Part shown: positions 16,212-17,646 of the stretch, one piece after another
Layout: each line of letters starts with the position of its first letter
Numbering within the stretch: the first letter of the stretch is position 1
NCBI GenBank assembly: GCA_015067715.1
Contig: SVLY01000006.1
Coordinates: forward strand, 1-64,000
DNA from: Oscillospiraceae bacterium
GTDB lineage: Bacteria; Bacillota; Clostridia; Oscillospirales; QAMX01
Length of the DNA: 64,000 bases
Direction: 5' to 3'
The notes under the pieces: generated by a model
Seen by the model: the letters and a program-made list of their open reading frames with translations, nothing else
Told to the model about the DNA's origin: nothing
Database searches by the model: none
Translations under genes and position numbers: made by a program

Positions 16212-16241
16212 CGTAGGGCGGGGGCTTGCTCCCGCCGAAAT
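16212..16241 (+). repeat. REP-like palindrome, copy 1
   Basis: The unit is CGTAG, then GGCGGGGGC TT GCTCCCGCC (a nine-base stem with one G-T pair), then GAAAT. It lies upstream of the S51 peptidase gene. Two further copies lie inside the nearby RAYT transposase gene. The ~295-base gap between the chromate-type transporter and the S51 peptidase holds only the terminator and this repeat. Confidence 0.85.
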
Positions 16242-16942: not shown

Positions 16943-17245
16943 ATGAAAAGAATTACCAAATCCAACATACCGAATAGTTTACCGTAGCATCCGTTGTGCT
17001 TGCTGCGGTTGCTAACTAAGAGAAAGCGGCGGGATCACGCCTACTTCTCTTATTCTTTTGAATATAGCTTGTCCAATTCCCATTGCTTTGGGTTATTCGC
17101 AATATATTCCGCAATCTCATGATAGTCTTCGCGACCGCGAATCACATGCTCATAAAACGAATTTTGAAACAGCTTATCAATAGGCTGCACCTTTTTACAC
17201 TGTCTGGTTGTAAGAGATTTATACGCACAAACGATATCCATGATC

Positions 17246-17273
17246 TTAGGGCGGGGGCTTGCTCCCGCCGTTT
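17246..17273 (+). repeat. REP-like palindrome, copy 2 (inside RAYT gene)
   Basis: The same GGCGGGGGC TT GCTCCCGCC core as copy 1, in the same orientation on the plus strand, so reversed relative to the RAYT gene. Confidence 0.85.
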
Positions 17274-17401
17274 CCTCCAACAATAGGATCGCATGAATAT
17301 GGTTGGGCATGATCACATATTGGTCAACTTTCAGCGAAGGATATCTTTGCTCCAGCAATACCAACTGCTCCTGCGCAATTTGACCGTATGCGGTATATTG
17401 A

Positions 17402-17432
17402 ATTTCGGCGGGAGCAAGCCCCCGCCCTACGA
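17402..17432 (-). repeat. REP-like palindrome, copy 3 (inside RAYT gene)
   Basis: The same core with CGTAG and GAAAT flanks identical to copy 1, oriented along the RAYT gene. Confidence 0.85.
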
Positions 17433-17646
17433 TACGGGATAACAGGCACCGTCTGCTTTGGGTGCAGATGGTAATAAAATACGCACCGGCGGTGCTGTAA
17501 TCATAGTGATCCAGGCGAGGGTGTTTTCTTTTCGGTAAGTTATTCTCCATAAATATCACCAAGGCTATTATATAGCAAGATCCGCAGTTCACAATGCCGA
17601 CTGCGGATTTTTCCATTAAGAACACGAAGTAAAACTCCGGGGTTTT

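Follow-up and report, generated by a model that had tools for sequence, protein, structure and literature searches.

In-frame inverted REP hairpins in a RAYT transposase gene: a putative split REPIN carrying the enzyme's own target sites

Why a RAYT (TnpA-REP) gene should hold two oppositely oriented copies of its genome's REP palindrome within its own reading frame is the question raised by this locus of an Oscillospiraceae bacterium. The window, by which we mean the whole stretch of DNA analysed (64,000 nucleotides of contig SVLY01000006.1), contains the gene and three copies of the repeat (Table 1). The encoded protein matches the NCBIfam model NF047646 (REP_Tyr_transpos) with an E-value of 3.7e-17 and 62.6 bits, against a curated equivalog cut-off of 80; the same model is matched by 52 of 52 aligned homologues. 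A Pfam search of the window RAYT itself gave no domain. The predicted structure (pLDDT 88) has as its top PDB match 4er8 (E 1.4e-8), the E. coli TnpA-REP in complex with a REP hairpin. Together with the invariance of its motifs, this match identifies an IS200-like fold with an HUH motif and a single tyrosine. The catalytic role of Tyr-149 is presumed by analogy with TnpA-REP and the IS200 transposases. His-84, His-86 and Tyr-149 all fall outside both in-gene REP copies, as the preliminary description of this locus had held.

Table 1. Positions of the RAYT gene, its motifs and the REP copies in the window
Feature	Position	Strand	Remarks
RAYT / TnpA-REP gene	17050..17550	-	166 aa, 498 bp; ATG at 17550, stop 17050-17052
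HUH motif, His-Ile-His (H84, I85, H86)	17293..17301	-	invariant in 52 homologues
Presumed catalytic tyrosine Y149 (YIANNP)	17104..17106	-	invariant in 52 homologues
Site 1: REP GTAGGGCGGGGGCTTGCTCCCGCC, gene-sense orientation	17407..17430	-	GTAG foot; codes V41-A48, before the HUH motif
Site 2: site-1 REP on the opposite strand (iREP in gene sense)	17246..17269	+	foot GTAG mutated to TTAG; codes T93-K101
Coding spacer separating the two hairpins	17270..17406	-	137 bp, holds the HUH motif; read from the sequence
Extragenic copy of the window gene's REP	16213..16236	+	about 0.8 kb past the 3' end of the RAYT gene

The 20-bp core of the repeat, GGCGGGGGCTTGCTCCCGCC, lies at 17250-17269(+) and 17407-17426(-) within the gene and at 16217-16236(+) outside it. 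In a shuffled control, allowing up to three mismatches, 0.03 matches were expected and none of 100 shuffles reached three matches. The core positions and the profile match thus bear out the earlier report of a RAYT gene with two in-frame, opposite copies of a genome-wide REP and a third copy outside. The genome-wide count it had called for gave 65 perfect copies of the 20-mer in 2.69 Mb (none for the reversed pattern) and only a handful with one or two mismatches; the GTAG foot is exact in nearly all perfect copies. The repeat therefore has the GTAG foot, GC-rich imperfect palindrome and high copy number of a REP, and departs from the usual extragenic location in having two copies inside the RAYT frame. 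The probability that at least two of 65 randomly placed copies would fall within one 498-bp gene is about 7e-5; the REP pair inside the RAYT gene is real and not a product of chance. No copies were found in a same-genus genome that has no RAYT match. The 20 longest other frames with the window REP gave no Pfam domain, a weak test since the RAYT itself also gives none.

The in-gene pair consists of inverted REPs with outer GTAG feet, as in a REPIN, the window site-2 foot being TTAG; this copy may for that reason be inactive. The short spacer and mobile multicopy unit of a REPIN are not found, as the window gene has a 137-bp coding spacer and the pair is single-copy. Nor does the gene have the close REP flanks of a REPtron, its nearest outside copy being some 0.8 kb off; close flanks are seen in its paralogues L032 and L034 and in several homologues. 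We note that elsewhere in the genome (G000 C26, C35, C36, C61, C62, C4) the window gene's REP and that of paralogue L036 recur 82 bp apart in the same orientation, within mosaic blocks of repeats in which REP families of different RAYTs are combined.

In the structure model, site 1 sits at the tip of a predicted beta-hairpin (strands E38-41 and E49-52) and is read as VGRGLAPA(EI). Site 2 is read as TAGASPRPK and lies in the predicted loop joining the HUH strand (E84-91) to the tyrosine helix (H103-121). Both peptides are those given in the preliminary description, which had also pointed out that neither in-gene orientation contains a stop. The latter is correct, and the 24-mer is open in five of six frames, but such openness is not special. 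Of shuffles of the 24-mer 96% are at least as open, as are about 68% of GC-rich GTAG hairpins generated at random. The proposal that evolution shaped the palindrome to read as an acceptable peptide in both directions is not sustained by these controls. It is further weakened by the family, in which the peptide varies with the hairpin (VGRGLAPA, VGTGVLDC, VGAIHESP, VGEGLCAL) and the pairing and the match between the sites stay.

Homologues were taken from the family's genomes and from GTDB genomes (80 loci) and 90 were aligned, a sample in which the window gene's relatives are over-represented. In 64 of the 90 a GTAG hairpin precedes the HUH motif and its reverse complement lies between HUH and tyrosine, always in this order. 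The count uses a strict definition (GTRGG plus hairpin at site 1, hairpin plus CCYAC at site 2), which the window gene, L094, L118 and L124 miss through one foot alone, both hairpins being present. Across the alignment site 1 follows the first beta-strand region (..LLS-V-G..) and site 2 follows MPNHIHxxL; the site-1 foot is read in a common phase in 67 of 71 occurrences. Many hairpin types occur across genes, yet the two sites of one gene have an identity of 0.95 versus 0.57 between genes, and the best of 10,000 permutations of the own-pair identity reached 0.65. On this sequence evidence the hairpin pair is an architecture of the gene family and not of the window gene alone. About a quarter of the homologues lack at least one of the two hairpins, yet their proteins look intact (L085, L087, L144, L154, L166, L168), from which it follows that the protein can do without the hairpins; the E. 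coli TnpA-REP (4er8) is without both the site-1 and the site-2 additions. Outside Bacillota, site 1 was seen only in an Omnitrophota gene, the others having REPs in the HUH-Y loop alone, sometimes in both orientations. The split matched pair thus appears to be a variant of the HUH-Y insertion theme that is largely clostridial in this relative-biased sample. Two irregularities were also observed. The REP-coded peptide is multiplied in frame at site 1 or site 2 in L130, L142, L149, L157 and L167 (for example VGTGVLDCPQTVGTGVLDCPQI in L149), and a close homologue, L078 (G010 C10), has a frame break and an altered hairpin at site 1 and an intact site 2.

Nine genes with the window's REP type, sharing 50-81% protein identity, were compared at four-fold degenerate third positions. 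Within the hairpins 511 of 526 such positions (97%) are identical, against 255 of 753 (34%) in the remaining gene. The rest of the gene is thus near saturation, and the DNA of the hairpins is itself conserved, beyond the peptide. The protein is under purifying selection, as judged from the window gene and L090, whose proteins are 81% identical although their four-fold sites agree at only 12 of 35. Two RAYT paralogues lying 25 kb apart (L199 and L200, G032 C23) are 70% identical in protein, and all four of their hairpins are identical; their four-fold identity is 14/15 in the hairpins and 14/31 elsewhere. A synonymous-codon null was exceeded at the two sites in 28 and 30 of the 90 genes (p<=0.02), compared with 0-2 genes for four control segments. 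It is conceivable that the sites are simply coding loops whose peptides are conserved for protein function, the palindromes being incidental, and the peptides are indeed alike within a clade (VGRGLAPA / TAGASPRP). We judge this explanation extremely improbable: it is contradicted by the difference in four-fold identity and by the synonymous null, exceeded at both sites, and clades that differ completely in their peptides nevertheless keep both the pairing and the match between sites.

The hairpins change in a manner that preserves their stems. Differences between site 1 and site 2 within genes comprise 7 compensatory changes in the paired arms, 4 in one arm and 14 in the loop. Among the 26-nt types the stem shows covarying positions and retains one mismatch; a non-Watson–Crick pair in the stem is retained in most hairpin types. 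In L093 and L097 the two arms carry paired changes that their relatives lack, made at both sites together. Since both hairpins are in the transcript and fold, they might be kept for translation control, acting as mRNA hairpins (through pausing, stability or binding of the RAYT to its own transcript) and not as DNA targets; autoregulation of this kind would account for their location in a RAYT gene. This too we consider improbable, although less so than the coding explanation. The two sites match as reverse complements of each other, loop and foot included, which fits DNA ends and not a one-strand RNA signal, and the stem mismatch is kept.

A protein tree built with both sites removed groups the REP types with the RAYT clades. 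Three RAYT genes of the window genome bear three different private pairs rather than its most abundant REP. This dominant 65-copy REP is absent from the genome's other RAYT genes, each with a pair of its own. The REP of paralogue L036 has 44 pattern matches in the window genome, nearly all equal to its site 1, and the exact REP of L034 is found solely at its own locus. The REP of L032 is found within the gene and again in a REPIN directly after the apparent stop codon, as two variants in the same order. This REPIN had been a candidate for a dispersed copy on another contig; its flank reads as the end of the L032 gene itself, and it is most likely placed just behind the gene's own stop, the contig being broken there. 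All of the 31 other genomes contain their searched REP type, in 2 to 96 copies with none in the controls; for part of these counts one type pattern is broad and takes in related REP types, and the genomes are mostly draft MAGs in which copies elsewhere may be missed. In G022 the sole two copies of the type are the in-gene pair, and G028 and G046 have one extra each. Around L148 about twelve copies of its own REP lie within 18 kb, several of them spaced at 81 bp just upstream of the RAYT, and a second RAYT copy, 100% identical, lies 788 bases downstream of L131, perhaps duplicated recently or produced by the assembly.

The preliminary description had treated both in-gene copies as insertions of the genomic repeat. 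The private pairs speak against this, as does the homologue in G022 (L091), which has the same peptides, both copies in the gene and no further copy in 2.1 Mb, the kind of case that the description itself had named as refuting; an account by random insertion of genomic copies alone is disfavoured. The main rival to our own reading is a more elaborate form, in which REPs repeatedly land in, or exchange with, two tolerant surface loops, the enzyme acting near its own gene and the in-gene copies being functionless. The match between sites and the conservation of DNA would then result from genomic REP copies constantly replacing those in the gene, or from conversion of one inverted copy by the other. 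Chakrabartyella piscis (G040), with two REP subtypes, one at each in-gene site, is consistent with such selfish hot-spots, as are the extra in-frame units piled at the sites of the five homologues named above, the loss of hairpins from some homologues and the known occurrence of REPs inside other genes (PMC3733652). Repeated replacement by REP copies, rather than selection, could indeed lie behind the DNA-level conservation. We regard hot-spots as a possible explanation and not as the probable one. Position, phase and orientation are constant over dozens of lineages, the most abundant REP of the window genome is missing from its other RAYT genes, and the exact pair persists in G022 with no other copy to replace it.

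Our preferred reading, which we consider probable, is that a split REPIN lies within the frame of the gene and gives it cognate recognition sites of its own, kept as functional DNA. The fixed position and orientation, the match of the hairpins within each gene, the conservation of DNA beyond protein and the private pair of each RAYT are its observed basis. The two halves of the split REPIN would be the REP at the beta-turn before HUH and, in the loop that leads from the HUH strand to the tyrosine helix, the inverted REP that matches it. The encoded RAYT would recognise both hairpins as its cognate sites, each strand presenting one of them in readable form, and the encoded peptides would be passive surface loops. 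For known TnpA-REP proteins, binding of the GTAG-tagged strand but not of the iREP has been described (PMC8266576); if this strand preference holds here, the gene product would find one site on each strand of its own gene, and we infer that this is the reason for keeping the pair. The enzyme would thereby act on its own gene, by binding or cleaving single-stranded DNA, by autoregulation or by copying of the segment. Transposase and target, inherited together, could seed REP and REPIN families, and the architecture suggests that the enzyme and the DNA it targets pass to descendants as a single piece.

In several genomes the extragenic copies are arranged as inverted pairs, GTAG feet outward, with starts about 100-115 bp apart, compared with about 160-170 bp for the in-gene pairs. 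These REPINs of other genomes have the polarity of the in-gene pair and a shorter, non-coding spacer. Their spacers in G026, G031 and G032, compared by eye, showed no evident likeness to the gene, and the idea that they are gene remnants is not backed there. At two loci, C53 and L119, a copy of the site1-to-site2 segment that is without HUH lies directly downstream of a RAYT gene. The copy in the window genome (C53:13049-13201) comprises 141 bp, is 97% identical to the segment with the HUH part deleted, ends near both feet and starts at a CT, reported as the cleavage point of TnpA-REP (PMC8266576). The locus as a whole (L068, G000 C53:12058-13201) consists of paralogue L034, a plain partial tandem duplicate upstream, the HUH-less copy downstream and a further REP adjoining. 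L119, from Omnitrophota, has a copy of its own middle part without the HUH segment, some 560-740 bases from the gene start. This copy reaches further into the gene than that of C53, making tandem duplication with decay an alternative origin. Judged by sequence, both copies look like products of loss of the HUH segment. Tentatively, the RAYT gene might be the progenitor of its REPINs, with the in-gene REP and iREP as working mobile ends and small REPINs formed by loss of the HUH-coding segment; we hold this to be rather doubtful, somewhat more so than the hot-spots. The internal-deletion derivatives of autonomous transposons would be a parallel.

The observations bear on how RAYT and REP stay matched and on how REPINs originate. 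Carrying its own target pair, a gene of this kind would couple enzyme and target in a single inherited unit, would account for the private REP family of each RAYT and would give a testable source of new REPINs. It is also a clear example of selection or homogenisation at the DNA level acting through coding sequence, the peptide following the hairpin. In the IS200/IS605 elements an HUH/Y1 transposase recognises hairpin ends in single-stranded form; those hairpins are outside the coding region, whereas the RAYT pair here is within it. With REPINs, the pairs of inverted REPs that RAYTs mobilise (PMC3116915, PMC8049555), the in-gene pair has in common the outer GTAG feet, the inversion and hairpins shared with the extragenic REPINs of the genome; it differs in its coding spacer with HUH and in being single-copy at that spacing. 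Intragenic REPs of other genes and the Rickettsia palindromic elements (PMC3733652) are likewise palindromes read in frame, but they occupy varying sites in many unrelated genes, in contrast to two fixed sites in a transposase gene. The non-Watson–Crick pair kept in the stems of the family resembles the stem mismatch that the E. coli TnpA-REP requires (PMC8266576).

The closest known relatives are the tnpA-REP genes of subclass 2.4, equated with Group 4 of Bertels in the table of Quentin 2018 (PMC6006769), where in-frame REPs are described as lying "generally" between HUH and Y. The motifs of the subclass are NH[IFV]H, WQ, YIxNNP and a variable, REP-bearing HUH-Y insertion. By motif comparison, the window protein has NHIH, YIANNP and the HUH-Y insertion, with FQ in place of WQ and an invariant Gln-129. 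We found no report of a second site, of a matching inverted pair or of DNA-level conservation in the literature, including the main text of Quentin 2018. Subclass 2.4 and the window gene are alike in NHIH/YIxNNP and in an in-frame REP placed in the HUH-Y surface loop, away from the active site. Most non-clostridial homologues have REPs only in that loop, sometimes in both orientations together. Unlike subclass 2.4 as described, the window family adds a REP before HUH, and its pair is inverted, matched within each gene and conserved as DNA.
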